Notes: generated from the letters alone by a model not told the origin. Shown: positions 8,244 to 63,819, counted from the first letter of the stretch. The stretch: 64,000 bases of DNA from Nitrososphaerota archaeon (GCA_021323705.1 JAJPKL010000007.1:1-64000); one strand, 5' to 3'. Numbers and translations are program-made.

Positions 8244-8519
8244 CTATTTTTCTTGTTTTGCTTGCTTGGCTTTACGTTTTGCTATAGCCCCACTTATTAT
8301 AGAAGCAACAAGCAATGCAAATGCCATTTCAGTAAAATATGCATAATTTGGACTGTGTATATCCATGAATGAAAGAATAATCAAAACAAAGCCGATGGCA
8401 GCCAATACGAAACTTATTTTGCCAAGATTATTTTTTGCCGTGATTTTCTTCCAAATTGAGACGTATTTCAACGTATCAAAATTACTTCTAGTGGATCGGA
8501 AGGGATAACCCCCGTCCAA
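8244..8519 (-). CDS. Small two-helix membrane protein spanning the element's left boundary
   Basis: The frame encodes up to 91 residues with two membrane segments (ISFVLAAIGFVLIILSFMDI and FTEMAFALLVASIISGAIA) and a basic tail (KRKAKQAKQEK). The first dozen codons, from TTG at 8519, read through the 16-bp attachment repeat and come from the element. The chromosomal part probably starts later, for example at the TTG of LKYVSIWKK. An element-borne TATA-like TTTTTATATT near 8548-8557 could now drive it. Before integration the gene lay directly downstream of tRNA-Val on the same strand. Confidence 0.55.
   Translation of the reverse strand: MDGGYPFRSTRSNFDTLKYVSIWKKITAKNNLGKISFVLAAIGFVLIILSFMDIHSPNYAYFTEMAFALLVASIISGAIAKRKAKQAKQEK
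8491..8506. repeat. Left attachment site of the tRNA-Val element
   Basis: This 16-bp sequence is identical to 21119-21134, the 3' end of tRNA-Val plus one base. The flanking bases differ, except that both copies continue into a C-run (AACCCC) after a 3-base gap. It marks the chromosome-element junction. Confidence 0.8.
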
Positions 8520-8598
8520 GGTGCATTTTTCGGTTCCGATTTTACATCTAATATAAAAACCGAATAATTAAAAAAAGGAAGTTTTACCAAATTTCTAC

Positions 8599-8784
8599 TC
8601 ACCGATAGAATTTGGTTCTGATTTCTTGTTTCTGAAAGTCAAATTCGACAGACGCCTTCACTTCTTGAGTATATACCTTAGATTGGTCAAACTCGAGATT
8701 TTTGTTTTGTAGAGCAAATAACATCTCTGTCATTTGTTCTGAATTTGAGCCGTCTGTGACTTCGTAAACTGCCTTTGTTTTCAT
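8599..8784 (-). CDS. Hypothetical 61-aa element protein
   Basis: A 61-residue soluble protein (begins MKTKAVYEVTDGSNSEQMTE, ends RTKFYR) with mixed strand/helix character and no Cys. It is divergent from the AbrB-like gene and shares its control region. A TAGGTACCCAAA site sits at 8791-8802, between its TATA-like CTTAAATAC and its start, so it is probably controlled by the same regulator. I do not recognise it; an antitoxin or small regulator is possible but unsupported. An inverted repeat TTCGGTT/AACCGAA (8529-8535, 8558-8564) lies downstream. Confidence 0.6.
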   Translation of the reverse strand: MKTKAVYEVTDGSNSEQMTEMLFALQNKNLEFDQSKVYTQEVKASVEFDFQKQEIRTKFYR

Positions 8785-8790
8785 TACTTT

Positions 8791-8830
8791 TAGGTACCCA
8801 AAATAAGTATTTAAGTGTTAGGTACCCAAA
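8791..8830. promoter_or_regulatory. Paired TAGGTACCCAAA operator, divergent promoter 1
   Basis: TAGGTACCCAAA occurs at 8791-8802 and 8819-8830, exactly 28 bases apart, with a GGTACC core. A shared TATA-like TATTTAAG lies between them. Each copy falls between the TATA and the start codon of one divergent gene (61-aa protein left, AbrB-like right), so both start sites would be covered by a bound protein. The AbrB-like product is the obvious candidate. Confidence 0.7.
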
Positions 8831-8840
8831 TTTTAAAAAC

Positions 8841-9029
8841 ATGTCAAGTTCAACACTAGATATGGAATTAAAGTTACAAAAACAACTTTCAAATGTTTAC
8901 CAAGGAAAAGAATACTCAAAATGGGTATTTGTCATTCCAACAAAGATCATAAACGAGTTGGGTTGGAATGAGCGTGGCAAGTACATAGCAGAGGTAAACA
9001 ACGGTAAGTTAGTTATTAAAAAACAATAA
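8841..9029 (+). CDS. AbrB/SpoVT-like DNA-binding protein
   Basis: A 62-residue protein starting MSSSTLDMELKLQKQLSNVY. The core is a swapped-hairpin AbrB fold: KWVFVIPTKIINELGWNERG followed by KYIAEVNNGKLVIKKQ. The pattern is strand, 'IPtkii-elgW-eG', strand, as in archaeal AbrB-family regulators and antitoxins. The frame is open from 8775, but ATG at 8841 follows a TATA-like box by about 29 bases, consistent with a leaderless mRNA. Two copies of TAGGTACCCAAA flank the TATA, suggesting autoregulation. There is no obvious toxin partner, although the 61-aa divergent gene is adjacent. Confidence 0.8.
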   Translation: MSSSTLDMELKLQKQLSNVYQGKEYSKWVFVIPTKIINELGWNERGKYIAEVNNGKLVIKKQ

Positions 9030-9052
9030 AAAAATGCAAGAATAGGTTTTCG

Positions 9053-9256
9053 TTATTCTCTGAACGCTTTTTTCCTATTCTGTTTGATAGTCAGGTATAG
9101 CAATGTACCTGATCCAAATAGCAATCCTATGCACACGTTCAAAGTAATCGCTGGCCCGGTGAACACCAAAAACAGAGTTAGGCCAACAAGTGTAGCGGCT
9201 AGGATTGCAAATTGTTCCTTTGTAGGTAATTTGCGGTATTGTTGTTGCGGTGTCAT
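9053..9256 (-). CDS. Two-helix membrane protein (67 aa)
   Basis: A 67-residue protein with a Gln-rich start (MTPQQQYRKLPTKEQF), two transmembrane helices (ILAATLVGLTLFLVFTG and ALNVC-type segment VCIGLLFGSGTLLYLTI) and a basic tail. It is divergent from the zinc-ribbon membrane protein at 9349 and shares with it the second pair of TAGGTACCCAAA sites. Function unknown. Confidence 0.6.
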   Translation of the reverse strand: MTPQQQYRKLPTKEQFAILAATLVGLTLFLVFTGPAITLNVCIGLLFGSGTLLYLTIKQNRKKAFRE

Positions 9257-9262
9257 ATCTTT

Positions 9263-9300
9263 TAGGTACCCAAATCCATACTTAAATGTTTGGGTACCTA
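9263..9300. promoter_or_regulatory. Paired TAGGTACCCAAA operator, divergent promoter 2
   Basis: One copy is direct (TAGGTACCCAAA, 9263-9274) and one inverted (TTTGGGTACCTA, 9289-9300), around a TATA-like CTTAAATG. The motif is identical over 12 bases to the pair at 8791-8830. The same regulator therefore probably controls at least four genes of the element. Confidence 0.7.
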
Positions 9301-9348
9301 AAATCCAATTGAAATAATACTAATAAGTTCAAACAAGACAAAAAAGAC

Positions 9349-9696
9349 GTGTTACGAAATAATGCAGTATGCACCACATGTGGAACGGAAGATCCTAATC
9401 CGGATAATCGTACGCCATGCCCTAATTGTGGAGATACTAGACGTTTTTTTAGTCGGAATATAGTAGAACCTGGAATTCCAGTTACCGATAGTATTTCAGT
9501 GACCACCACTTTACGGGCCATTAGAGAATTTTATCGAGAAAATCCAAAATCTGTTGGTTTGCACCTAGCCTATGCGATAGGTGCGTTGCTCGCACATCAT
9601 TTTATCGCACCGTTTGATCAAGTGATTGGTGCCACGGTAGGCGGAATAATCGCATCATTGTTTGTTGTACGGCCCCCTTTTACAAAAAACACATAA
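9349..9696 (+). CDS. Zinc-ribbon membrane protein
   Basis: A 115-residue protein with GTG start. An N-terminal zinc ribbon has two CxxC pairs (CTTCGTEDPNPDNRTPCPNC). A short helix follows, then two membrane segments (VGLHLAYAIGALLAHHFI and QVIGATVGGIIASLFVV). The ribbon faces the cytoplasm if the helices form a hairpin. It lies under the second operator pair. No family assignment. Confidence 0.65.
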   Translation: MLRNNAVCTTCGTEDPNPDNRTPCPNCGDTRRFFSRNIVEPGIPVTDSISVTTTLRAIREFYRENPKSVGLHLAYAIGALLAHHFIAPFDQVIGATVGGIIASLFVVRPPFTKNT

Positions 9697-9756
9697 AAAT
9701 AGATGAGATTCGAATGTCAAGAACTATTTTATCTTAGAATTTTGGTATTGGTTTGA

Positions 9757-10515
9757 ATGGGTAAACCACCAAAAAAACTAATCCCACTATCGAAAATCCC
9801 TGAAGGGGTACGACTATGTCATCAAAATTGTACTAGGCTATTAAAAGACGCTAAACTTCTCATTGGTAAAAAAAGATATCACACTGCAATATCTAACGTA
9901 ATACTGGCGAAGGAAGAATTTGCAAAGATTCTCTTATTGTTAAACCATTACAAAAAAGATGAAGATGTGCCCGCATCTAAAGCAGAAGAGTATTTTTCTA
10001 AACATAGAGTTAGGCTCGAAGAGTTTAGAGAATTTTATCATGATGATTTTCCACAAGTTTTAGGTGGTGGAAAAAAATGGCGACAGCATTGGTTATTTGA
10101 TGAGATGGAAAAAGAAAGACAGATCTACGTTGATTGGACTGGAATGTGGCAATCGCCTATAACACTATTCGGAAAGGCGAGCATTGTAAATCCTAAAAAA
10201 ATGTTTGAACTCATGGCCAATTCTCAAAAAAATGAGTTGGACAAAGTGCTAAATCAAATTAAACGTAATCCCTACTTTGTTGAAGCGATGGGAATAAAAG
10301 ACAATATAGTACCTACAAGACCCAAACTTCAAAAAATAATCGATAAAATAGCAGGTCAGCCCGTTAGCATCAAATTTGATTTGAATGATAAAGAATTAAA
10401 ATTAGAAATTCAAAAACATGGATTGCAAAACCATGCGCTAGTAGGTTGGAAGGCCCTACAAACTATAGGACGAATGAATTACCCTTATAGAAACATGATA
10501 AGTTGGGAAAAATAA
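9757..10515 (+). CDS. AbiV-like HEPN protein (possible abortive infection/defence)
   Basis: A 252-residue soluble helical protein. Residues 15-70 match the AbiV/HEPN pattern: a helix CHQNCTRLLKDAKLLIGKKR, then YHTAISNVILAKEEFAKILL, that is 'A..LL......A......a.EE.aK..LL', then a following FSKHRVRLEEF with the His/basic pair seen after this core. AbiV is a phage-abortive protein and many HEPN proteins are RNases. The classical R-X4-6-H motif is not clear here; REFYH is R-X3-H. The second half is unrelated to anything I know. Cargo of the tRNA-Val element. Confidence 0.6.
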   Translation: MGKPPKKLIPLSKIPEGVRLCHQNCTRLLKDAKLLIGKKRYHTAISNVILAKEEFAKILLLLNHYKKDEDVPASKAEEYFSKHRVRLEEFREFYHDDFPQVLGGGKKWRQHWLFDEMEKERQIYVDWTGMWQSPITLFGKASIVNPKKMFELMANSQKNELDKVLNQIKRNPYFVEAMGIKDNIVPTRPKLQKIIDKIAGQPVSIKFDLNDKELKLEIQKHGLQNHALVGWKALQTIGRMNYPYRNMISWEK

Positions 10516-10519
10516 AATA

Positions 10520-10666
10520 TTATGCAGATTCCCCGGTATTTTTAGTAGAATCGTTCTTATGCCCTCTGAACAAATCTACAAAATTATTAAATGCCTTTGT
10601 TAGATGTTCAGCTTCTCTCGCTTCTTCTGCTTTTGCTTTTCTTTCCTGGGTTGCTTCTTCTTCCAA
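10520..10666 (-). CDS. Coding-like frame overlapping the 3' end of the giant gene
   Basis: In the +1 frame relative to the giant gene, an open frame runs from 10699 to the TAA at 10520. From TTG at 10666 it reads a Glu/Ala/Lys helix (LEEEATQERKAKAEEAREAE) and then HLTKAFNNFVDLFRGHKNDS. It continues 29 codons past the giant gene's stop (10608) and is clearly protein-like. It is either a small separate gene with a weak start, or the real C-terminus of the giant protein reached by a frameshift or sequencing indel. Confidence 0.4.
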   Translation of the reverse strand: MEEEATQERKAKAEEAREAEHLTKAFNNFVDLFRGHKNDSTKNTGESA

Positions 10667-13600
10667 ATGGGTTTCTTTGTAATTCCTCGGCGGTGTAAAC
10701 TACGTTACCCAAATGTTCAACGTCATAGAATACATGAACCTTAGAACCTTTCTTTGAGGAACCTTCTTCGCGATAACCAAAATCACCTAGTTTTTTGAAT
10801 TTGAAAGGTTGGATGATGTCACCGCTTGTTGGGTTTTCTGGAATTGTTGGAACCGGGATTAAGTCAGGCGGGGGCGGTGGAATCTTGAACGCTGGCACTT
10901 GTTCTAACTTAGTACCAGGCGTAAGACCTACTTTTGGTATTGTAGTTAGATCAACCCCTGGCGGTAGATCTAATTTTGGTACTTTCTTTAGTCCTGGAAT
11001 GTTTTTTGGTGTTACATCTAAACCCGGCATATCGGATTGTTTTTTGTTCAATTTAGACAACGTTCCAAGTTTTGTCAAATCTTCCATCTTGCCTAATGGC
11101 ACTAAATCAACAACTGGCCCGGTTTTCTTTTTAGTTGATTCTTCCAAATCAGGGATTGCAATTAAATCGGTTCCTGGCAAATGTGCCAAATCGTTTATCA
11201 TTTTTGTATTTGATTTTGAAATGCGTTTTAGGTTAGAATCTTGCTCTATCATATCGGTGGGCGTTGAGTTTTTGATTTTAACTAATCTTGAAATTCCCTT
11301 GTACAAGTTTCTAACACCTGGGCTTGTTGTTGTTTTTGTTGTTGTGGTTTCTTGTTTTGCTGGTTCAACTACGGGTATGGTTCCGGTAATCGGTTTGGAA
11401 ATTTCCAAAGTTGGTTTTACTTTGCTTGCTGGTGTTGTAATCTCTTTTACTTGTTCTTGCAAAGTTTTAGTTGCGGATTCGCCGCCCGTTGGATTTCCTG
11501 GTGTTGCTGGCGATCCTGGTGCTTTTGTAGTGCCTGAACTTGCCTTTGTTGTTTCTTCAAATGAATAGGCCCTTTCTTCGTAGCCAGGATTCAACCCTAA
11601 TGATTTGAGATAATTATCAAATGTCTTACCGCCTACCGAAGTACCGCCATAAGTTACACCACGGGCCGCACCAGCACCAAATCTTTGAACGGATATTATT
11701 TTAGAGATTGCACTAGGTTCGGGTATCTTGACTTTGGACCCTGGGCCGTTGATGATAAAGTTACCAAACTCGGAAGCCGATCGTTTGAATTCACTTAATG
11801 AAAATTGGTAGCCCGTACCTGTTACTTTTGCATTGCCTGATTCTATCGCTTCGTTGATCCTTGTTAGTGTTGTTGGATGAATGTAAGTTGATTCGGGTAA
11901 TTTGGTTATACCGCTAGAAGTTGAAGATGTTGCAAATACATCTTTGTTTAAAGATTTTGCGTTGAATAATTCAGATTTTGTATTAATTGGGCCTATTTGT
12001 TTGGCCTTCGCTAGTTCTGATTGTAAAGACTTTGTGATTTGTTCATTGTTTGCATTTACAAAGTCACTAGGTACTGAATTTACTACTTCGGAAGGGTTTG
12101 TTTTTGTTGTTACCTCAAAGGCGTTATTGTTTATCTTTGCGGCCCTCATCAATTGAAGATCTTTCGGTTCGGTTGTACCCGTTCCAAGTATCTTATTTGG
12201 TATCTGTTTTGTTATTGTGGTTTCTGGGGTGTATAGTTCTACGGTTCCTTTGTTTAGATCCAGGACACCCGCGGCAACATAAGACGGCTTTGGTGACGGT
12301 GCAACGGCGGGGCCTTTGGGTTTTACAAGATTGCCTTTGCTATAATCTACAACTGGCGATTCCTCGATTAGTTGTTTTCCTGTTGCAACCTCATCATTGC
12401 CTGAACCTACATAGAAACGATAAATGCCTGGTGTTGCTGTCTTTTCAACAACATAAGGCGCGGCTGTCTTTGTTGTAGTTTGTGCAATATCTACGCCAAC
12501 ATAAGGTAACGGTGCTTTTCCTGTTTCAGATTTTATACTTGCTTGTAGTGCTTCACTGTTTTTAACGGCGGCTAATGAACTTGATTTAGTTACTTCGGTT
12601 GTTTGTAATACATTTCCGATTATACTTTTTGCGGTTGCTTCTTCGCTGTTTCCGGTGACTAATCCTTTCAAAAAAGATATTCCGGTTTTAGCACCGCTCA
12701 CAATATCACCAACAGGAAGAAGTGAAAGCCAGATAGTTGGTAACGCTCGACCTATGGCCCCCGCGGGATTAGCAGAAATTGAAGTTCCAATTTGTTGATA
12801 TTTAGAGGCTAAAACAGTACCGTAAGAAACACCATATGATTTCGATTCTTGATAGGATTGTATCGGTGCTGAAATTGCTTGACTAATGATATCATCAGAA
12901 CTAGGAATATTGTTATCTTTGCCACCACTTGCAATAAAATTGTAAACTCCTTTAAGATCTGCTAGTGTTTCGTTAATTCCTATATTGCTATTTTTGACGA
13001 ATTCACCTATTGCAGAATCTGGCGCCCCAGTTTTTGGCAATGGTGTTTTTGGTGTCACTACCCATGGTTGAAGAGTTAGAATATCATCAAATGATAGTAT
13101 ACCTTGTTTCTCTAATCCCATTAGATAATTTCCGGCGTTTGAAACTCTCATTGCTGGATTTGTCGCGTATTCTTTTAGAATTGCTTCACGTAGTCCTTCA
13201 TTTGTGGACACAAAAGGCGCATTGGCTTTTTGTACCTGAGCGTTGTATTGCTTTACGCTGTTGTTCAATATAGTAACATCGGGTTTTGTTATCACTCCCT
13301 TGTTTTCTAATGGTATTAGATAACTTGGATTTATGTTTACAAATGCACTAGGATTTGAAGTCCGTGCTTCTATTATTGCTTGTTCAAGTTCGGGGTTTGT
13401 TGAAATTCCGTTATTGAAATTATTTAATTTAGTTTCTTGTTGCTTGTTATAATTCAGAAAGGCGGCGTTTATTTTATCAATATCGCTAGGCAATAAGACG
13501 TTTTTTGTTTCCAAACTTGTGAGATATCCCGTATAATTTCCGTATTTTTCAGGGTGTGCGGTGATATTAGAAACTAATTCTGATTCTAATTCGGGGTTTG

Positions 13601-14726
13601 TAGATTTTGGCCCTGCTGTTCCACCGGGCAAAACTTCGCCCAATGTTGGTTTTTCTGCATTAAGCGAAAGTGCTTTGCTTGGTTTTGAGTTTGAAACTTG
13701 GAAATATACGGTTGGTTGAACCGTGTTATACACATCTTCATTTGAAAGAACGCCTGTCTTAATTAACGATTGTAGATAATTGCTTGGTAATGTCTTGAAG
13801 GCATTCGGGTTATTTTCCCTTTCTTGTATTATCGCGTTTCTTAATCCTGGATTAGAAGAAACAAAAACAGTTGTTGAAGGTACGGCGGTTTTAGTCGTAG
13901 TTATGATTGGTGTTGAAACGGTTGGTGTAGATTTTACAGAAACAATAGAGGGTTTGATTGTATTTGAGAGATCGTCATTTGATAAAACACCCTTTGCCAC
14001 TAAATTTTGCAAATAATTACTTGGGTAATATTGAAATGATTTTGGATTTGATTGCCATTCTTGTAAGATCGCATTTCGTAAACTTGGATTAGTTGAAACA
14101 AAATTTATTTCGCTTGATGGTGCTGATGCTGGTGCTGGTGTATTGATTACCGTCTTTGCAATCTGAACACCCGTAGAAATTGGCGTTACTGTAGAGCCTG
14201 ATCCTAAAATCGGTGTTTTGGTTTCATTGCCTGATAATGCGGATTGACCTAGATCAAGCCCCTTACTTTGCGGTGTTTCTATTCCCGGTGCTACCGCTAA
14301 CGGTATAGGCGGTTTTGGTATTGCCGCAGGTATTAGGATTGTTGTTGTTTCTGATATTGGTTTTGAAGCATTGCCGAAATCTGATAACACCTGGGCTTGT
14401 TGCGGTTGTTGTGGCTGTTGTGCTTGTTGAGCCTGTTTAATTGCCGCTGCTTGTGCTGAATCTGTATTACTTCCGATGTTTCCCGTTATTTCGTCAGAAA
14501 TCACTTTATCGTTTTGTGATTCTTGTGTATTCAACGCCGCACTTACTTTGTTTGGTGTTGAGTTTTGAGAAGATGAACTTACGGAATTACTACCGCTTTC
14601 AAAAGCCTGAGTTTGACCAACTGTAAAATAATTGTACCAATTCGGTTGCGGGCCAGTTCCGTTAATGTATGCATTCATTGCCGCCCGCCATGCCGCTACT
14701 TGTTGTGGATTTAGTTGCGACGACAC
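10608..14726 (-). CDS. Giant multi-repeat, proline-rich protein (1372 aa)
   Basis: The largest gene of the element, with no recognised family. The N-terminus has Ser/Gln-rich low complexity (QAQQAQQPQQPQQAQ near 98-112). Five copies of a roughly 50-residue module lie at about 209-260, 288-338, 373-422, 440-490 and 505-554, with consensus VSTNPxLxxAIxxExxxNP, then YLxxLxxxGVLSxxD. A hydrophobic stretch (ALPTIWLSLLPVGDIVSG) sits near 661-678. The last 250 residues carry P-x-L/V-type tandem motifs (IPGLKKVPKLDLPPGVDL, PPPPPDLIPVPTIP) and a basic tail (GRRSNPGKKSKSRRS). No signal peptide. It could be a virion, surface or scaffold protein; this is inference. Confidence 0.75.
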   Translation of the reverse strand: MSSQLNPQQVAAWRAAMNAYINGTGPQPNWYNYFTVGQTQAFESGSNSVSSSSQNSTPNKVSAALNTQESQNDKVISDEITGNIGSNTDSAQAAAIKQAQQAQQPQQPQQAQVLSDFGNASKPISETTTILIPAAIPKPPIPLAVAPGIETPQSKGLDLGQSALSGNETKTPILGSGSTVTPISTGVQIAKTVINTPAPASAPSSEINFVSTNPSLRNAILQEWQSNPKSFQYYPSNYLQNLVAKGVLSNDDLSNTIKPSIVSVKSTPTVSTPIITTTKTAVPSTTVFVSSNPGLRNAIIQERENNPNAFKTLPSNYLQSLIKTGVLSNEDVYNTVQPTVYFQVSNSKPSKALSLNAEKPTLGEVLPGGTAGPKSTNPELESELVSNITAHPEKYGNYTGYLTSLETKNVLLPSDIDKINAAFLNYNKQQETKLNNFNNGISTNPELEQAIIEARTSNPSAFVNINPSYLIPLENKGVITKPDVTILNNSVKQYNAQVQKANAPFVSTNEGLREAILKEYATNPAMRVSNAGNYLMGLEKQGILSFDDILTLQPWVVTPKTPLPKTGAPDSAIGEFVKNSNIGINETLADLKGVYNFIASGGKDNNIPSSDDIISQAISAPIQSYQESKSYGVSYGTVLASKYQQIGTSISANPAGAIGRALPTIWLSLLPVGDIVSGAKTGISFLKGLVTGNSEEATAKSIIGNVLQTTEVTKSSSLAAVKNSEALQASIKSETGKAPLPYVGVDIAQTTTKTAAPYVVEKTATPGIYRFYVGSGNDEVATGKQLIEESPVVDYSKGNLVKPKGPAVAPSPKPSYVAAGVLDLNKGTVELYTPETTITKQIPNKILGTGTTEPKDLQLMRAAKINNNAFEVTTKTNPSEVVNSVPSDFVNANNEQITKSLQSELAKAKQIGPINTKSELFNAKSLNKDVFATSSTSSGITKLPESTYIHPTTLTRINEAIESGNAKVTGTGYQFSLSEFKRSASEFGNFIINGPGSKVKIPEPSAISKIISVQRFGAGAARGVTYGGTSVGGKTFDNYLKSLGLNPGYEERAYSFEETTKASSGTTKAPGSPATPGNPTGGESATKTLQEQVKEITTPASKVKPTLEISKPITGTIPVVEPAKQETTTTKTTTSPGVRNLYKGISRLVKIKNSTPTDMIEQDSNLKRISKSNTKMINDLAHLPGTDLIAIPDLEESTKKKTGPVVDLVPLGKMEDLTKLGTLSKLNKKQSDMPGLDVTPKNIPGLKKVPKLDLPPGVDLTTIPKVGLTPGTKLEQVPAFKIPPPPPDLIPVPTIPENPTSGDIIQPFKFKKLGDFGYREEGSSKKGSKVHVFYDVEHLGNVVYTAEELQRNPFGRRSNPGKKSKSRRSERS

Positions 14727-14743
14727 CTAAAATTATGGTCAAG

Positions 14744-14759
14744 TTACTTATTTAAGTAA
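14744..14759. promoter_or_regulatory. Palindrome at the giant gene's promoter
   Basis: TTACTT-ATTT-AAGTAA is a perfect palindrome with 6-bp arms. It overlaps the likely TATA of the giant gene (start 14726, minus strand). The divergent replication cassette has its own TATA-like TTTATAAAAA near 14790. It may be an operator. Confidence 0.4.
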
Positions 14760-14821
14760 GAAATTAGTTTGCACACTTTTTCCTTTCAATTTATAAAAAC
14801 AGGTAGTGCGAATAATTGCCC

Positions 14822-15115
14822 ATGCCCGCAAAACACAGAATTTGGGTTGCACTTAATTCAGAAACTTACAGAAAATTCGAATCAAAATTTCCTAATACTG
14901 AACTCAACCAATGGGCAAAAACATTAGTTTCAGATATTATTAATGAAAGAAGAATTGTAATAGACTTCTCTGATTTCAGAGTCAAAGATTTAGAAATCTT
15001 AAACATGAAATTGCAAATTGAACTTCTCAATGAAAAATTAGCAAAAGCGAGGGGGTGTCCTCCGCCCCCTCGATCTAATCCACCTCTCGCAACTGAGGAG
15101 ATTGAAGATGGGTAA
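14822..15115 (+). CDS. Small putative DNA-binding protein, first gene of the MCM cassette
   Basis: A 97-residue protein starting MPAKHRIWVALNSETYRKFE. A short strand followed by two helices (SETYRKFESKF, LNQWAKTLVSDIINE) is compatible with a ribbon-helix-helix domain. A coiled-coil helix (NMKLQIELLNEKLAKA) and a Pro-rich end (CPPPPRS) follow. It overlaps the next gene by 8 bases, and all four genes of this cassette overlap. ATG at 14822 is preferred to TTG at 14816. The RHH assignment is tentative. Confidence 0.6.
   Translation: MPAKHRIWVALNSETYRKFESKFPNTELNQWAKTLVSDIINERRIVIDFSDFRVKDLEILNMKLQIELLNEKLAKARGCPPPPRSNPPLATEEIEDG
15048..15072 (+). repeat. GC-rich hairpin inside the MCM cassette
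   Basis: CGAGGGGG (15048-15055) and CCCCCTCG (15065-15072) form a perfect 8-bp stem with a 9-base loop, in an otherwise AT-rich gene. It encodes the ARGCPPPPRS stretch. It lies about 36 bases before the next start codon and could modulate translation or RNA stability of the downstream genes. Confidence 0.5.
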
Positions 15116-15284
15116 TCTTTCGTTTTCGGGGTTAATATTTATCGCTGATAACGCCATATGTTGCCCGTTCTGTCAGGGCAGAAGGCGAGTTTTTGATACA
15201 CCACATAACTTCGGTGTTCATCTTGCCTTTTCCCATAAACTGAGTTCAAAAACTATCAAGAAAATTTTAGGAGAGTTACCATGA
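15108..15284 (+). CDS. C2H2-type zinc-finger small protein
   Basis: A 58-residue protein starting MGNLSFSGLIFIADNAICCP. It contains CPFC, 15 residues, then H-LAFS-H, a C2H2-type zinc finger. A basic helix KLSSKTIKKIL follows. ATG at 15108 is supported by GGAG at 15096-15099; TTG at 15102 is the alternative. It overlaps both neighbours, so it is translated as part of the MCM operon. Probably a DNA-binding accessory factor for replication or copy control (inference). Confidence 0.65.
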   Translation: MGNLSFSGLIFIADNAICCPFCQGRRRVFDTPHNFGVHLAFSHKLSSKTIKKILGELP

Positions 15285-15514
15285 TTTACAACATCAGTTG
15301 TATTGTTCCTACTTGCCGTTCCTATCACAAAGTCATACTTGCAGACAGAGAGCAAATTGAGGCTCATTTTAAGGGCCATGATTCCGCAGAACTTCATAAA
15401 ATTGCTCGTGAACTAGGCATTATCAGTAATGATGGTTTTTACTCAAAAAACTATCTTGCTACTCGAATTTTTGAATATTTAGCCGCACAGAACACTATTG
15501 GGGGGTCTCCTTGA
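15281..15514 (+). CDS. C2H2-type zinc-finger small protein 2
   Basis: A 77-residue protein (MIYNISCIVPTCRSYHKVIL...). CIVPTC is followed 16 residues later by HFKGH, giving a C-X4-C-X16-H-X3-H zinc finger. The C-terminal half is helical (HKIARELGIIS, YLATRIFEYLAA), resembling a small winged or SAP-like segment. It overlaps the previous gene by an ATGA and the MCM gene by TGATG, so translation is tightly coupled. Confidence 0.65.
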   Translation: MIYNISCIVPTCRSYHKVILADREQIEAHFKGHDSAELHKIARELGIISNDGFYSKNYLATRIFEYLAAQNTIGGSP

Positions 15515-17553
15515 TGGCGCAGGACGTAGTTAAGGAAAACTCAGTTAGTTCAGCGTTTGTTATTGACAAAATAACTGAATTCTTCAAGATGGTAAAAGAT
15601 GGCAAATATATTAATAAAATTGATGCTCTCGAAGGCGCAAATCTTATCCTAAACTATTATGATTTTTTTGATTATCAGCAAGATAACCAAGTATTTTCGA
15701 TTTTTGATTTTCTCAACAGAAATCCCGAACAATTCATCCATTTTTGCGAGATCTCTGTAAAAGAAATTTATTCTGAAAAACATGGAAAAGAGAAAGCCAA
15801 ATTATTAGATCTGACGATTCAGGTTGACAAATCAGAATTAGAAATCACCGTAAATCAAGCAATAAAAAATAGACACCTAAACAAACTTGTTACAATTTCA
15901 GCCTTGGTAAATGGCGAAAGTGAAATTCAGAATAGAATCAAACTAGGTTCTTGGGTTTGCGCCGAAGGACATAAAACAATATCAGAAAGTGAAAAATCAC
16001 CTTTAAAATGCGGTAATTCAAAGTGTACAGAAAGACGACTTGATTTAGATTACGAATCAACAAAAATTGAAAGTTATCGTACTTTCTATCTTAAAGACGT
16101 GAATTACACCGTGCATCATGGAGATACATTAATCGCTGAAGCAAAAGGCGATTTAAGTGATATAGCGAAAGTTGGCGACATTGTCCAAATCACAGGGTAC
16201 ATAACATCACAACAAAAAGACAAGAAATTATTCAATATTCTGCATATTCTTAACATCGAAATAACAAATAAAATTGATTATCAAATCACAGAAGAAGATA
16301 AAAAAATATTCGAGCAATGGCCCAAGAAAGATAATTTCTATCCAACATTAATTAATTCGATAGCGCCGCAGATTTACAAAAATGAATTATTGAAAGAAGC
16401 CTTTCTTTTATGTTATATTGGTTCTTCTAAATGGTCTGCTGATCAGAAATATTGGATTAATGTTTTAGCAGTTGGTGATCCCGCCACGGCAAAAAGCAAA
16501 ATTGCACAATGGGGTAACAGAGTGTTACCAAATGTTAGTTTAGTCTCATCAAAAGCGGGTTCTGCTAAAGGTTTATTCGCGGGACAAAAAGAACAAATCG
16601 ACGGAAACAAGGTTTTAGAGGTTGGCCCGATGGTACAAAACAGCGGCCGCGGCCTAGTCTGTATTGATGAATTCGCCAGAATGTCAGAGGTGTTTGATGT
16701 GTTTTATTCCCCAATGGAAAACGGTAGATTCAATTCTGCAACTGTAGGGGGCCATTCGGACTTACCAGCCGAAACACCCATCTATGCAACTGGCAATCCT
16801 AAAAAATCAAATTTCTGGGATGAAAACAAGTCCGTTTTAGATAATCTCCAAGTTTTTGAACCGGCCATGTTGTCACGATTTGACTTGATTATGATTCTCA
16901 AAGATTTCGGAACCATAGAAGTCGATACCAAGATAGCAGAGACAATTTTATCACAAACTACAGGCGATAGAGCCATTTCTTATAACGAAGTGGATTTGGC
17001 AAAATACCTGATGTTTTGTAAGACGATTCACCCAAAACTAACCGATGATTCTAAGAAGATTATTACCCAAATTTTTGTTGATATTCGCAGACAAGCGCGC
17101 GGTTCGTTGATAGATCATCAAGATCTCAATGTTAGATTGGTTGGTGTCATAACCAGAATATCACTTGCAATTGCACGAATCCACCTACACCACGAAGTAA
17201 AAGAGGAAGATGTTAGTCTAGCAAGACGACTTTTAGAAAATATGTTGCACCAACGAGGACTCAAAGTTAGCAATGCAAATACCTATGTCGATAGAGTTGC
17301 ACAGAAAATTCTAACGATTCTTGAAAGTTCGATATCTGCGCTGACTGACCAGGAAATCTATGAAAAATTATTTATTACCTTTGAACAAGAAAAAGATACG
17401 CTGTTAAACGACATTGGAACGGAGGGGCCACATAGAGACTCTAACAAACGATGGCGCGCCATAATGGAGAATGTAGAAAAGTCGTACTTGATTGAAATTG
17501 AAAGTATGAAGCCTAAGAAATTAAGATACAAACATGAGCAAACTAGACTCTAA
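15514..17553 (+). CDS. mcm: MCM-family replicative helicase encoded by the element
   Basis: A 679-residue AAA+ helicase that unwinds DNA at forks. An N-terminal region with a Cys/His zinc site (WVCAEGHK ... LKCGNSKC) is followed by an OB-like part. The motor has Walker A VGDPATAKSK, Walker B LVCIDEFARM, sensor 1 ATGNPK and arginine-finger region LSRFDLIMIL. A C-terminal winged-helix-like tail begins near residue 595 (LTDQEIYEKL). Walker B has CIDEFARM where host MCMs usually have CIDEFDKM. ATG at 15514 overlaps the preceding stop. A helicase of its own implies autonomous replication of the element at some stage. Confidence 0.92.
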   Translation: MAQDVVKENSVSSAFVIDKITEFFKMVKDGKYINKIDALEGANLILNYYDFFDYQQDNQVFSIFDFLNRNPEQFIHFCEISVKEIYSEKHGKEKAKLLDLTIQVDKSELEITVNQAIKNRHLNKLVTISALVNGESEIQNRIKLGSWVCAEGHKTISESEKSPLKCGNSKCTERRLDLDYESTKIESYRTFYLKDVNYTVHHGDTLIAEAKGDLSDIAKVGDIVQITGYITSQQKDKKLFNILHILNIEITNKIDYQITEEDKKIFEQWPKKDNFYPTLINSIAPQIYKNELLKEAFLLCYIGSSKWSADQKYWINVLAVGDPATAKSKIAQWGNRVLPNVSLVSSKAGSAKGLFAGQKEQIDGNKVLEVGPMVQNSGRGLVCIDEFARMSEVFDVFYSPMENGRFNSATVGGHSDLPAETPIYATGNPKKSNFWDENKSVLDNLQVFEPAMLSRFDLIMILKDFGTIEVDTKIAETILSQTTGDRAISYNEVDLAKYLMFCKTIHPKLTDDSKKIITQIFVDIRRQARGSLIDHQDLNVRLVGVITRISLAIARIHLHHEVKEEDVSLARRLLENMLHQRGLKVSNANTYVDRVAQKILTILESSISALTDQEIYEKLFITFEQEKDTLLNDIGTEGPHRDSNKRWRAIMENVEKSYLIEIESMKPKKLRYKHEQTRL

Positions 17554-17571
17554 TAGATACACCAGTCAAAT

Positions 17572-17612
17572 AGGTCAGATAGGTCAGATTGAATGTATAT
17601 GACCTATCTGAC
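17572..17612. repeat. Inverted/direct repeats downstream of mcm
   Basis: AGGTCAGAT is repeated in tandem at 17572-17580 and 17581-17589. A 13-bp perfect inverted repeat pairs GTCAGATAGGTCA (17574-17586) with TGACCTATCTGAC (17600-17612) around a 13-base AT-rich spacer. It lies 19 bases after the mcm stop. It could be a terminator hairpin or an iteron-like origin; both are inference. Confidence 0.55.
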
Positions 17613-17629
17613 TCATGTGACCGTTACTT

Positions 17630-17839
17630 CTATTGTTCTTGTTTCATAGGCAAAGGTATGTTGAATCGGCGCGCTTGCTGAATTGTGATAACATTTAGTC
17701 TTAGAGCGCATGAGATACAGAATCTCTTTTTCTTTCTCTTACCTATACAATATTCATGATATAGTTCTGTTTGACATTCTCTACATTGCACATGGAAACG
17801 ACAAACATACACCTGTGTTTGAGTTTTGATTCGAACCAT
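17630..17839 (-). CDS. Zinc-ribbon basic protein (69 aa)
   Basis: A 69-residue protein with two CxxC pairs (CREC and CISC, plus an upstream Cys in VYVCRFHVQC). A very basic loop KRKKKRF lies between them and a helix QQARRFNIP at the C-terminus. The features fit a nucleic-acid-binding zinc ribbon. It is convergent with mcm, with the inverted repeats between their 3' ends. Function unknown. Confidence 0.6.
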   Translation of the reverse strand: MVRIKTQTQVYVCRFHVQCRECQTELYHEYCIGKRKKKRFCISCALRLNVITIQQARRFNIPLPMKQEQ

Positions 17840-18312
17840 AGAAGCCGAACTAGATTTTAATTAATTTTGATATTTTTAAAAATTGAATCTCATGGAGAGT
17901 AGTAGAGAAGGGAAGCGAACGATCGATTTGTTGATTCGCATTTTAATTTATTATTCTATGGTATAATTCTAAGGAATGATATACAAAGAAATCAAATTGA
18001 TGAAAAACAGATTGAACCACTAATAGCCATTCTCAAAACGCTAGAACTTTCAAAGTCATAAAACACGAACAGTTTGTTAGCCCTTTTTGGGCTCTAAACC
18101 TACCACTTTTTCTGATAGTTTTGCCATAAGACCAGGGGTTTTCAATGAAAAAAATCACTAATAACTATCTATTGGCCCCAAAAAAGCCAGTAAAGCGCCT
18201 AATTACGGTATAAAGGATAAATCGGGAATTCGTTTGCGGGTAGAACGGCTTTAACAAATTTCTACTGGCGATTCGGCGCGCCAATATAGGGCCATAAAAC
18301 AGACTATATGAG
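17840..18312. other. 473-base gap inside the element without a clear gene
   Basis: AT-rich, without a convincing gene. It contains a short hairpin AGCCC-TTTTT-GGGCT at 18079-18093. Between about 17905 and 18060 a frame stays open without a start codon and ends in a protein-like stretch (QIDEKQIEPLIAILKTLELS), possibly a decayed or non-ATG small gene. An origin of replication would be plausible here, near mcm, but no iteron array is seen apart from 17572-17612. Confidence 0.4.
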
Positions 18313-18945
18313 ATGTGTTATGAAAGCAATGATTGTTCAGGGATGTCGCGTCCTACCTACATAAAGATTCCAAGTTTTCTAATCAAGTGGTTTACCCCAT
18401 TTTTTATTGTAGGTTTGATACTCGAAATTACTACTCTACTACATTCTATTCCAATTGTATTGCAGATTAGGACTTCGCTTTGGGTTAACCAATTTCATCA
18501 ACTCATTTTTTGGCCAACCTTCATACTTTCTTTTATTTTCTTTTATCTATCATTCAAAAAAGATGTAGACGCCATTACAAAACCACGTATGACGCTATAT
18601 CTATTTTTGTTGATTTTAACGGCTCCTGTAATAATACTAGCAATCGAACCATATCTTTTCTTCAGCGAAGTTGCATTGTTTATTCCGACTGATTTCGCTA
18701 ATACGAGAGTAACTGAACAAAAATTTGAAAGTGTTGATTCGGAAGTTCGATTACTCTCTCTTGTAATAGTTCCGACTATTATGCCGTTAACGACTTATCT
18801 TAAAGAAAGAAAATTACGATCTTTGAATATTAAAATGAACAGTCTGTATAATGTTGATTTTGAGAATTTTTTTCCGTTAATGTGGATGACTTTCATAGGC
18901 ACGTTAATCTATGTGTTTTATTATAATTATCAGTTATACAATTAG
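18313..18945 (+). CDS. Polytopic membrane protein of the element
   Basis: A 210-residue protein with about five membrane segments (FLIKWFTPFFIVGLILEI, FIWPTF-type LIFWPTFILSFIFFYLSF, LYLFLLILTAPVIILAI, LSLVIVPTIMPLTTYL, MWMTFIGTLIYVFYY). Start may be ATG at 18313 or ATG at 18343 (MSRPTYIK). No transporter motif is visible. It converges with the CAP-domain gene, 2 bases apart. Function unknown; envelope modification or immunity is speculative. Confidence 0.6.
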   Translation: MCYESNDCSGMSRPTYIKIPSFLIKWFTPFFIVGLILEITTLLHSIPIVLQIRTSLWVNQFHQLIFWPTFILSFIFFYLSFKKDVDAITKPRMTLYLFLLILTAPVIILAIEPYLFFSEVALFIPTDFANTRVTEQKFESVDSEVRLLSLVIVPTIMPLTTYLKERKLRSLNIKMNSLYNVDFENFFPLMWMTFIGTLIYVFYYNYQLYN

Positions 18946-18947
18946 AT

Positions 18948-19742
18948 TTACCAACAAGATTTTGCATCCTGAGGTTCGGTTTCAAAACTACTAGGATCAT
19001 ACTCATATCCTGGTTGTAATGAGGCTTGAAAGTCTTGAACCATGACCAATTGGCCCGGGATAGTTGCTATACCTATTGAGACAGACGACCATTGAGGATC
19101 CAGGATGTTTTTTTGGTGGCCCCAATTTGAACCCGCGTCATCGAACATCATTTCATAGTTTTCTTTCAAAACCTGAGATTTTGGATTGGTAAGAACGGCA
19201 TCAGAGTCAGCGGCTATATTTTCACCTACAAGATACATGGTATCACCATTATTCTTGTATCTTAACATCGGCCCCTCACCTTTAGAGTCAATATGATGTA
19301 TGCATCTTTCTTGTAATAACTCCTGGGAATACAATTGTGGTGACTTTGCGTTACCTAATGTTACTGGCCCAATACCGTGTTGTTTTCGATAGTTGTTAAG
19401 ATCATCTAATGCAACTTGACGTAATTCAGTCAAAGAAGGTGAAGGCCCTAGTAATATAGGACTATTTGTAGTGGCTTGTGAGATATTTGCTGTTAAAGTA
19501 GAGATCTTTGTAAGTATGGGTTTAGTATACGGCGATTGTTCTATTTTTGGTAACTCAGAATCTACTTTGTTAGTTAGTACGTTAAGATTTTGATAGATAA
19601 AAAATCCGACAATAATGATGCCGACCAAGACAGAGACGATCTTAACATGTCGTTTTGTTTGATAGGTTAGTAGCCTTCTATGGCCACAACGAACACAAAC
19701 GAGTTTATCGCCTCGCCATTCATAATGATGTTTGCAATTCAA
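18948..19742 (-). CDS. Membrane-anchored CAP/SCP-domain protein with N-terminal zinc ribbon
   Basis: A 264-residue protein. Residues 1-22 form a zinc ribbon (CKHHYEW, LVCVRCGHR), residues about 34-52 a single membrane helix (IVSVLVGIIIVGFFIYQNL), and then a linker. From about residue 110 there is a CAP (SCP/PR1) domain: LNNYRKQHGIGPVTL, SQELLQERCIHH, LVGENIAADS, GSNWGHQKNILDPQW, LVMVQDFQ. CAP proteins act outside the cell in adhesion, lipid binding or proteolysis. With the ribbon inside and CAP outside, it could signal across the membrane (inference). It lies 5 bases downstream of the integrase gene in the same operon. Confidence 0.8.
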   Translation of the reverse strand: MNCKHHYEWRGDKLVCVRCGHRRLLTYQTKRHVKIVSVLVGIIIVGFFIYQNLNVLTNKVDSELPKIEQSPYTKPILTKISTLTANISQATTNSPILLGPSPSLTELRQVALDDLNNYRKQHGIGPVTLGNAKSPQLYSQELLQERCIHHIDSKGEGPMLRYKNNGDTMYLVGENIAADSDAVLTNPKSQVLKENYEMMFDDAGSNWGHQKNILDPQWSSVSIGIATIPGQLVMVQDFQASLQPGYEYDPSSFETEPQDAKSCW

Positions 19743-19747
19743 CTAAC

Positions 19748-21070
19748 TTACTCCTGAAGAAATTTTTCTTGGTTAGCCAGAAATTCAGATAATTTTTTAG
19801 CGCCTTCTTTTGTGTTTTTGTTTTTACATAGTTCTTGCAAGAAAGCAAGTTTATCGATATCCTTTAGAAGGGATTGGTGTTCTGCAAGTTGTTTTTGTAT
19901 GCTAGCAAATTCATCCCTTTGAATTGTTAAACTCTCGTTCTTAATGCGCAATTCTTCATTTTCTATGGATTTACGTTCTGCATCATCGATTGTTAGCGCG
20001 GGCACAGCGTGAAGATATTCTTCGACCAACTCCAGTACATGAGATTTGAAATAATTCCTATCCGTTTTAACCAAACCTGTATGGCTCATCATGTATTCTT
20101 TTTTGATTAAGGCGGCAAGAGGGGAGTCTTTTGAGGTTGTTTCCTTGTTTACTTTGTTGAAAAATCTTCTAAATCCATTCATGACAGGCACTTCATATCT
20201 TCTCATGCCTTTTGGTAATTCTTGTCGCAGATTAGCAGTAAGTAGTAATCTCTCAATGTGTCTTTTGATTGCCGTTGGTTTGCACATTATTGGAACGTTC
20301 CCTTCAACTTTGAATATCGGATCGCCTGGCTTCGGTTCTCTACCTACCTCTTTCGTCCATTGAATCTTCCATTCCATAAGGGCCCCGTAGGCTTCAGGTG
20401 TGATAAAAGCGGGATAATAATCTGAAGTTCCGTCATAAATTTTTAAGATGGCGCAAACTACTTTTGCGTCCTTTTCCTGTGATTCTGTAATTTCTAGCAA
20501 TATCTTATTGTCTACTCGGTAGACTGGCATCAGATGATTCCATTTTAGAGCAAAACCCCCCTCTCTAATCCCCGAACTTGCGGCAACTAGTATTATTGAT
20601 TTGTTAAACCAACTGCCGGTGGATTCAAGCATTTTTTGAATCTCTTCTCGCTTGTACCCCCTACCCTCATTGGTGTTATCATGCTCAGGAAAGGTAGCAT
20701 AGACGCGTTTCCAAACTACAGGAACGCCGTTCATGTCAAGTAATTTCTTTAGTGGTTTGAAGTAATTACCAAACGAACTAGGGTTATAGTAATTTTTATC
20801 AGTTCTCGGAAGTTTGGTTCTTTCTTTTAATTTGCCCGCCAATGATAGCATAACGCTTAGGGCCCAATCAGGATCATTCTTTGCTTTCTTTACAAACTGT
20901 GTTGCTCGTTCTTCAAAAGTTCCTGTTAGGACATCTTCAAGTATGTTACACAGCGTATTTTTTAGAATTCTAGTATAACGTTCTTTTGTGGCTTCGGCCT
21001 TGATTCCATCATAGAATAATTCAATTGGATTCTTCTCAACCTTTTCAATATCAGTTAAGTTGATTTTCAA
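19748..21070 (-). CDS. Tyrosine recombinase (integrase) of the tRNA-Val element
   Basis: A 440-residue archaeal-type tyrosine integrase. The catalytic domain includes SSGIREGGF with the first Arg, a Lys/His-containing middle, an NGFRRFFNKV box in the HxxR position, and GLVKTDRNYFKSH with the likely nucleophile Tyr. A C-terminal coiled coil follows (ENEELRIKNESLTIQRDEFA). The open frame reaches 21214 but would translate the tRNA gene. I therefore choose TTG at 21070, with GGAG at 21079-21082 eight bases before it. It should catalyse integration and excision between 8491 and 21119. Confidence 0.88.
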   Translation of the reverse strand: MKINLTDIEKVEKNPIELFYDGIKAEATKERYTRILKNTLCNILEDVLTGTFEERATQFVKKAKNDPDWALSVMLSLAGKLKERTKLPRTDKNYYNPSSFGNYFKPLKKLLDMNGVPVVWKRVYATFPEHDNTNEGRGYKREEIQKMLESTGSWFNKSIILVAASSGIREGGFALKWNHLMPVYRVDNKILLEITESQEKDAKVVCAILKIYDGTSDYYPAFITPEAYGALMEWKIQWTKEVGREPKPGDPIFKVEGNVPIMCKPTAIKRHIERLLLTANLRQELPKGMRRYEVPVMNGFRRFFNKVNKETTSKDSPLAALIKKEYMMSHTGLVKTDRNYFKSHVLELVEEYLHAVPALTIDDAERKSIENEELRIKNESLTIQRDEFASIQKQLAEHQSLLKDIDKLAFLQELCKNKNTKEGAKKLSEFLANQEKFLQE

Positions 21071-21118
21071 ATTACAGACTCCATGCGTAGCGGATCCTAA
21101 AAAAGCACTCTGAAAGTG

Positions 21119-21134
21119 GTGGATCGGAAGGGAT
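21119..21134. repeat. Right attachment site (3' end of tRNA-Val)
   Basis: Identical over 16 bases to 8491-8506. It covers the discriminator base, the acceptor 3' strand and part of the T-stem, so integration leaves the tRNA intact. Confidence 0.8.
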
Positions 21135-21192
21135 TCGAACCCCTGACCACCGCAGTGTGAGTGCGGTATCCTACCAGCTAGACCACCGATCC
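21120..21192 (-). tRNA. tRNA-Val (anticodon CAC)
   Basis: A 73-base cloverleaf on the minus strand without encoded CCA. The acceptor stem is GGATCGG/CCGATCC with discriminator A. The D-arm is GTCT...GGAT, and the anticodon stem CCGCA/TGCGG has loop CTCACAC, giving anticodon CAC, which reads GUG (Val). The T-arm is AGGGG-TTCGAAT-CCCTT. Its 3' end is the integration target of the element. Confidence 0.95.
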
Positions 21193-62646: not shown

Positions 62647-63819
62647 ATGAATTTAAAACTTAAAGAGATAACATCAGACCAGGCCTTACGTGATTATCTT
62701 GATAGGGTTTACATCCAATCTCATAGCAAGGCCTCAGTAAAATCCTATCGTGTGGGCATTACAGGGTCTAATAACGGATTTAGAACATTTTTGAAAGAAA
62801 AATACAATTGCGATGAAATACAACTTTGTATTAGAATACAGAATCAAGAGTTAGATGTTTATGATGTTCTAAATGACTATGTCGTTTTTGTGGATAAAAA
62901 AGGCATAAAACCAAAGACTACTAGACTATGGTTTACAGTAGTCAAAGGCTATCTTACGCACTTAGGACTAGATGTTTATTCAGAAAAATGCAAGCAAAAA
63001 ATTAAGCTTCCAAAGGTAAGACGGGTAAAAAAAGAAGCTCTTACAAAAGAAATTCTTGTAAGATTAATTCGCAATCTAGACGCAAAATTAGCTACCGCGG
63101 TATACGTAGCCATATCAAGCGGTATGAGAGTAGGTGAAATAGCTGGCCTTACCCTTACAGATATTGATTTTGATGATGAACCAGTTAAGATCAGTATTCG
63201 AGCAGAGACATCAAAATCAAGAGAAGATAGAGAGACTTACATCACCAATGAAGCTGCAATCGCCTTAAAGGATTATCTTAAGCGTTATTTTGGTTGGAGA
63301 GAAGATAGTACGAATTCACACTTACAAGGTCTTAGAATCTTTGGACGAACAAATGTAATTAAGAACGGTGACCAAAACGCTAAAGGTCGAATACCCCAAG
63401 TTAGTGAACAACTTTCAGAAAGTGACTTGCTTGGAAGCACATTACGAAGGATTTCTAAAGTTCCAGAACTAAACCGCTTGTCTCGAAGTGGTTGGCGCGT
63501 AATACATTTTCATGCTTTTAGAGAATATTTCTATACCGTAGTAAGTAACGTGTCAGGGTCTAATTTTGCTCATGCTCTTATGGGTCATCATGAATATCTA
63601 GATACTTACTACGCACTTTCAGAAAAACAACAAGCAAGTTTGTATCAAAAGGCTATGCCATATCTTACAATATCAGACTATTCAAAGATAGAGAATGATT
63701 TAGAAAAGATTCAGAATACTCAGGATGGTCTATTAGAGAAGTATGCAGAATTTGAGAGATATTTGAAGGCTAAAGACCCTTCTTTTTTGGAATTTTTAAG
63801 AAGAAACAAAGAAACTTAG
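62647..63819 (+). CDS. Tyrosine recombinase/integrase (XerC/D-like)
   Basis: A 390-residue recombinase. An N-terminal SAM-like core-binding domain (SKASVKSYRVGITGSNNGFR) is followed by the catalytic domain with AISSGMRVGEIAGL (Arg I), TSKSRED (Lys), HFHAFREYFYT (HxxR) and MGHHEYLDTYYALS with His and the nucleophile Tyr. A C-terminal coiled coil follows (IENDLEKIQNTQDGLLEKYA). It is unlike the integrase at 19748. It probably belongs to a second element continuing right of the window. Confidence 0.9.
   Translation: MNLKLKEITSDQALRDYLDRVYIQSHSKASVKSYRVGITGSNNGFRTFLKEKYNCDEIQLCIRIQNQELDVYDVLNDYVVFVDKKGIKPKTTRLWFTVVKGYLTHLGLDVYSEKCKQKIKLPKVRRVKKEALTKEILVRLIRNLDAKLATAVYVAISSGMRVGEIAGLTLTDIDFDDEPVKISIRAETSKSREDRETYITNEAAIALKDYLKRYFGWREDSTNSHLQGLRIFGRTNVIKNGDQNAKGRIPQVSEQLSESDLLGSTLRRISKVPELNRLSRSGWRVIHFHAFREYFYTVVSNVSGSNFAHALMGHHEYLDTYYALSEKQQASLYQKAMPYLTISDYSKIENDLEKIQNTQDGLLEKYAEFERYLKAKDPSFLEFLRRNKET

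Follow-up and report, generated by a model that had tools for sequence, protein, structure and literature searches.

The window analyzed here, i.e. the whole stretch of DNA of 64,000 nucleotides, makes up the beginning of contig C20, which is 96.8 kb long and belongs to a genome of 1.84 Mb. A block of 12.6 kb within it is bounded by two copies of the 16-bp sequence GTGGATCGGAAGGGAT (Table 1), and no other pair of this kind is present in the window; when up to two mismatches were allowed, 2 matches were still found, versus 0.01 expected. A previous sequence-only reading had described this perfect repeat of the tRNA-Val 3' end and had taken the enclosed block to be an integrated element, and both claims were borne out. 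By searching related genomes for the corresponding locus, we found the empty site intact in four members of the same genus (G020, G228, G005 and G019), with the gene order NRAMP, phosphoribosyltransferase, a 152-aa protein and a 91-aa protein, followed by tRNA-Val and threonyl-tRNA synthetase. The phosphoribosyltransferase was undetected at the G228 locus, where the other listed genes are present. When joined at the repeat, the flanks of the window align end to end across the full junction in all four. An ordinary chromosomal island that was never inserted, to which the base composition of the block (near that of the remaining window) would be suited, is excluded by these four empty sites with their precise junctions and is also opposed by the direct repeat, leaving it practically no probability. 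Judged from these alignments, the block is truly an integrated element, inserted at the tRNA-Val 3' end. In certain other relatives the 91-aa gene and the tRNA are separated by extra material, or the gene order at tRNA-Val is altered. The flank looks like an insertion hotspot, since other genes, e.g. an ABC transporter pair, fill this position in G229, G018 and G226 (L096, L097 and L099).

Table 1. Features of the integrated element and its surroundings, with window positions and the evidence for each assignment.
Feature	Position	Strand	Evidence
Distal att repeat, 16 bp	8491..8506	+	exact match to tRNA-Val 3' end; empty-site alignment
Four TTnGGTACCnAA palindromes around AbrB-like gene, probable operators	8790..9301	.	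motif count
AbrB/MazE-like small regulator, 62 aa, weak assignment	8841..9029	+	PHROG_4324 2.5e-4
67-aa protein, two predicted membrane helices	9053..9256	-	hydropathy
115-aa zinc-ribbon-like membrane protein	9349..9696	+	domain scan, hydropathy
AbiV-family HEPN protein (abortive-infection type), 252 aa	9757..10515	+	Pfam PF18728 5e-14; TIGR04498 3.6e-13
1372-aa Ser/Thr/Pro/Asn-rich, Cys-free repeat protein	10608..14726	-	composition, repeat analysis
First replication-operon ORF, 99 aa	14816..15115	+	overlaps next ORF
60-aa zinc-finger-like ORF (C-x2-C...H...H)	15102..15284	+	ORF call; motif by eye
77-aa zinc finger plus SAP-like protein	15281..15514	+	alignments; AlphaFold2 model
MCM helicase, 680 aa, complete gene	15511..17553	+	Pfam PF00493/PF17855/PF17207; separate clade
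Opposed 9-bp iterons (AGGTCAGAT), candidate origin	17565..17621	.	lag-9 p=0.002; inverted p=0.003; DNA hairpin z=-4.4
69-aa Cys-rich small ORF	17630..17839	-	ORF call
210-aa protein, about four predicted membrane helices	18313..18945	+	hydropathy
Zinc-ribbon, one membrane helix and CAP-like domain, 264 aa	18948..19742	-	domain scans, hydropathy
Tyrosine recombinase (integrase), beside tRNA	19748..21070	-	alignment with relatives
Proximal att repeat, within tRNA-Val	21119..21134	+	sequence match
tRNA-Val(cac), integration target, kept intact	21117..21192	-	tRNA prediction
XerC-like integrase of second element; element runs past window end	62647..63816	+	sequence search

The gene content largely agrees with what the sequence-only reading had listed. 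No convincing Pfam match was obtained for the integrase, yet in the alignment of this protein with 11 relatives (12 members in all) R164, R296/R297 (in an NGFRR motif), H325 and Y335 are invariant, which is consistent with a tyrosine recombinase. Of 250 host-family genomes, 80 contained relatives (E<=1e-20), while a PDB sequence search gave no match and a scan of viral contigs no relatives. The MCM helicase (Pfam 1.8e-39) and the AbiV-like protein (above the cut-offs of both Pfam and NCBIfam) were confirmed. The latter is the sole recognizable defence-type gene in the element and thereby probable defence cargo; it had no match in PADLOC. Two other assignments stood in part: the CAP-domain membrane protein is present as a gene but its CAP domain falls under the cut-offs of both Pfam and the NCBIfam CAP-containing domain, and the proposed AbrB-like regulator is likewise present but only weakly assigned. 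Four TTnGGTACCnAA palindromes, at 8790, 8818, 9262 and 9290 (4 in 64 kb versus 0.05 expected), flank the AbrB-like gene and are absent elsewhere in the window, suggesting that they are its operators.

The predicted 1372-aa repeat protein was recovered as an intact ORF with about five repeats of approximately 65 aa. It had no relative in any search, be it of phage records, IMG/VR viral contigs or PDB sequences. Together with the 67-aa two-helix protein, which we take to be loosely reminiscent of the coat proteins of spindle-shaped viruses, it could be a virion part, making the element a provirus of an undescribed virus family. We regard this as rather improbable, given that the large protein lacks viral matches, that the small one has weak PHROG matches to function-unknown groups only, and that neither is common to the other MCM elements compared. 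As the sequence-only reading had stated, no terminase, portal, capsid or conjugation ATPase was detected in the element among the known families covered by Pfam and PHROGs.

In the replication operon, the 77-aa zinc-finger ORF overlaps the start of the MCM gene by 4 nt. The nearest relatives of this MCM are encoded farther along the contig, by a second element (C20:64469-66526, 52% identity), and in G087 (49%) and G172 (31%). The type was confined to three Nitrosopumilaceae genomes in a class-wide search of 300 genomes, and none passed the thresholds in the further family or class genomes searched. Scanning GTDB contigs with the MCM alignment gave a single contig (JANQNN010000013.1), and two viral-contig scans gave no relatives. 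In a tree of 38 sequences the four element MCMs form one fully supported clade on a long branch, outside both the MCMs of Nitrososphaerota hosts (the host's own gene sits on contig C5) and those of other archaeal viruses and plasmids; the deeper placement of the clade is unsure, because composition differs among the rows and the branches are long. The second element extends to approximately 67.3 kb of contig C20 (L009:7647-12258) and has a XerC-like integrase, an RHH-like protein, an MCM, a zinc-finger gene and iterons, with no flanking direct repeat of at least 13 bp.

A 73-91-aa ORF with the pattern C-x4-C-x16-H-x3-4-H directly precedes the MCM gene in all four of these elements. The AlphaFold2 model of the 77-aa protein (mean pLDDT 88) displays a beta-beta-alpha fold plus two helices, and the helical part weakly resembles SAP/Rho-N domains, with Pfam matches below cut-off and Foldseek E-values above 0.9; no significant Foldseek match was found with the zinc-finger model. 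A profile search for the family in 400 genomes of the class, which ignored neighboring genes, identified 16 convincing loci, all on mobile-element loci in Nitrosopumilaceae, the host family, and none outside it. Matches with E above approximately 1e-4 (L082-L087, L094 and L095) were judged to be chance or doubtful. At 14 of the 16 loci a replication-type gene follows directly on the same strand, in 10 cases with a gap of only -9 to +2 nt. These partners are MCM (4 loci), D5/SF3 helicase (2, assigned by Pfam DUF5906 and D5_N), a family of approximately 660-aa P-loop proteins (5), HUH Rep-like proteins (2) and another P-loop-like protein (1), the last three types being recognized from motifs read by eye, without database matches. 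The two loci that lack an adjoining replication gene have a primase-polymerase-like gene further down the operon (by eye) and an HNH-like gene, respectively. A weaker match, in G138:C29, also lies just upstream of a P-loop-like ORF. For the 660-aa family, which had no PDB sequence match, a replication role is suggested by the P-loop-like motif, its structure model being of low confidence (pLDDT 49).

The clearest sign of module exchange is a backbone that occurs with three different enzymes. The second element, G138:C4 and G172:C78 have in common an integrase (65-83% identity), the zinc-finger protein (40-56%) and a 79-aa ORF (39-65%), while the replication gene encodes an MCM, a D5 helicase and a HUH Rep-like protein, respectively. 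A Cys-rich N-terminal domain common to a P-loop-like protein (L109:1352-3094) and a HUH Rep-like protein (L111:6807-8135), with 46% identity over 70 aa, appears to be a further sign of such shuffling. An element in G004 whose integrase is 72% identical was rejected as the same element, as it has a different replication protein and no match to the zinc-finger profile. Upstream of a 660-family gene in G004 there is a 123-aa ORF (L039:10911-11282) that by eye resembles a divergent zinc-finger/SAP-like protein and was missed by the profile. In the literature searched (open papers only), we found no case of one zinc-finger gene reused with unrelated replication enzymes.

Directly 3' of the MCM genes are arrays of 9-bp repeats, opposed across a short spacer. 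Both elements of this genome have the word AGGTCAGAT, those of G087 and G172 have words related to it, and for the D5 element in G138 the word is GGTTACAAA. Among lags from 6 to 24, lag 9 was the best in all five cases (those of the four MCM genes and the D5 gene), the empirical p ranging from 0 to 0.0024 against a background that includes the tested loci themselves, and no period-9 iterons were found at the five host MCM genes tested. Across the 1.84 Mb of the genome, the exact double iteron is confined to the vicinity of two genes, this MCM and that of the second element, 47 kb away, and all three genomic matches to AGGTCAGATAGGTCAGAT with no more than two mismatches likewise adjoin these genes. 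An automatic test for opposed pairs was positive in 5 out of 14 elements versus 2 out of 1470 background windows; this element, the second element and G172 each have one imperfect array and for that reason fail the strict version. Elements of the 660-aa family have similar arrays within the 3' end of the gene itself, where 9 bp is the length of three codons and the signal is confounded by repeats in the coding sequence. G130, G172:C78, G167 and G170:C42 have either no iterons or a different type close to their replication genes. In G004, iterons are present and the profile detected no zinc-finger homolog. AACAC-type repeats, possibly RHH operators, were also seen between the iterons and the RHH-like gene of three elements (L009:9200-9330, L038:3170-3310 and L100:6500-6620).

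Tandem direct repeats beside a replication gene are what is expected of an iteron-type replicon, and we read the opposed arrays as candidate origins of replication. Inverted repeats in this position could instead be bidirectional transcription terminators or RNA-stability hairpins, with no part in replication, as they are able to form a hairpin (z=-4.4) and lie between convergent genes in both this element and G087. A terminator would, however, have no need of tandem 9-bp direct repeats, and in the second element and G172 they stand ahead of a gene on the same strand. Five host MCM genes do without such repeats, and the exact ones are common to two elements and found nowhere else in the genome, all of which makes a terminator very unlikely. 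Two elements with the same candidate origin are thereby present in one genome, which raises the question of how elements with identical iterons coexist.

We consider it probable, with some reservation, that this is an integrative, plasmid-like Nitrosopumilaceae element that brings its own origin adaptor, i.e. the zinc-finger protein, as well as its own MCM, and replicates from the iterons. The tyrosine recombinase would insert the element at the 16-bp tRNA-Val 3' end and presumably also excise it, whereupon the circular form would most likely use as its origin the opposed 9-bp iterons that immediately follow the MCM gene. The zinc-finger/SAP-like protein, co-produced with the MCM, is predicted to bind the iterons and position the element's own MCM there, with host enzymes supplying the remaining steps, and the zinc-finger gene is a constant part that other elements reuse with unrelated replication enzymes. 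Alternatively, the zinc finger may be a regulator only, which acts as a repressor of the replication operon and controls copy number, the iterons being control sites and the MCM starting elsewhere or with host Orc1/Cdc6. Repressor roles are common among small zinc-finger proteins, and tight coupling to the downstream gene suits autoregulation. Against this stand the position of the iterons in this element and G087, 3' of the operon between convergent genes and away from its promoter, and the retention of the zinc-finger gene while helicases change, so that we find such a purely regulatory role unlikely. Returning to the origin adaptor, a bolder and more tentative suggestion, possible but in our opinion doubtful, is that the zinc-finger/SAP-like protein serves Nitrosopumilaceae elements in general, recognizing 9-bp iterons of the RGTnA type and recruiting whichever of MCM, D5/SF3, the approximately 660-aa P-loop protein or HUH Rep adjoins it, with helicases swapped and the initiator kept. 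Were the initiator indeed constant in this way, it would illustrate how a single replicon backbone can change from one helicase to an unrelated one. How thaumarchaeal mobile elements replicate has been little explored, and the zinc finger, MCM and iterons, spanning less than 3 kb, make up a compact predicted unit testable as a minimal replicon.

When compared with known classes, the element has no VirB4/TraC-type ATPase or mating-pair genes of an integrative-conjugative element, no Cas1 integrase and PolB of a casposon (Pfam), and no TerL or double-jelly-roll capsid gene of a Caudoviricetes or DJR-type provirus. Instead, it combines a tyrosine integrase with att repeats at a specific insertion target and has an empty site in relatives, and no capsid, terminase or conjugation genes were found, which fits the cryptic integrated elements (CIE) of thaumarchaea as characterized in PMC6563490. 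According to that study, CIE have a median att of 17 bp and some carry MCM, e.g. NitGar-E6 and NitEve-E3; the likeness to these two, which is one of description rather than of sequence comparison, extends to the integrase, a short att at a tRNA 3' end, a size below 20 kb and the lack of capsid and conjugation genes. The undescribed family suggested by the sequence-only reading is therefore not a new kind of element as a class. CIE is a catch-all class, though, and the portion of PMC6563490 at hand mentions neither a replication-tied zinc-finger gene nor iterons. The replication module, i.e. iterons and a zinc-finger gene reused with unrelated enzymes, looks new. This module, the second element and the zinc-finger reuse are the unusual parts, none of which featured in the sequence-only reading. 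Small elements of the CIE class have, in the same study, been proposed as possible genetic tools.

Mobile MCM helicases are also known from pTN3, pMEFER01, MFTV1, BJ1 and HATV-3, and pTN3 even has a C2H2 zinc-finger gene beside its MCM, but these helicases are only about 21-30% identical to ours and fall elsewhere in the tree. The SCCmec primase-helicase operon is, in the accessible part of PMC7581432, a similarly conserved replication operon on an integrated element, although bacterial and with unrelated proteins, and is to be seen as a lead only. Another parallel is the Rep-Arvir rolling-circle module of the haloarchaeal virus SNJ2 and its relatives; the SNJ2 rep gene and 210 bp downstream replaced the replication region of a plasmid (PMC13107129). 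That cassette is likewise reused across element types and has a functional inverted-repeat sequence downstream of rep; it encodes an RCR endonuclease, whereas here a helicase (MCM or D5) is found with a constant zinc-finger partner.
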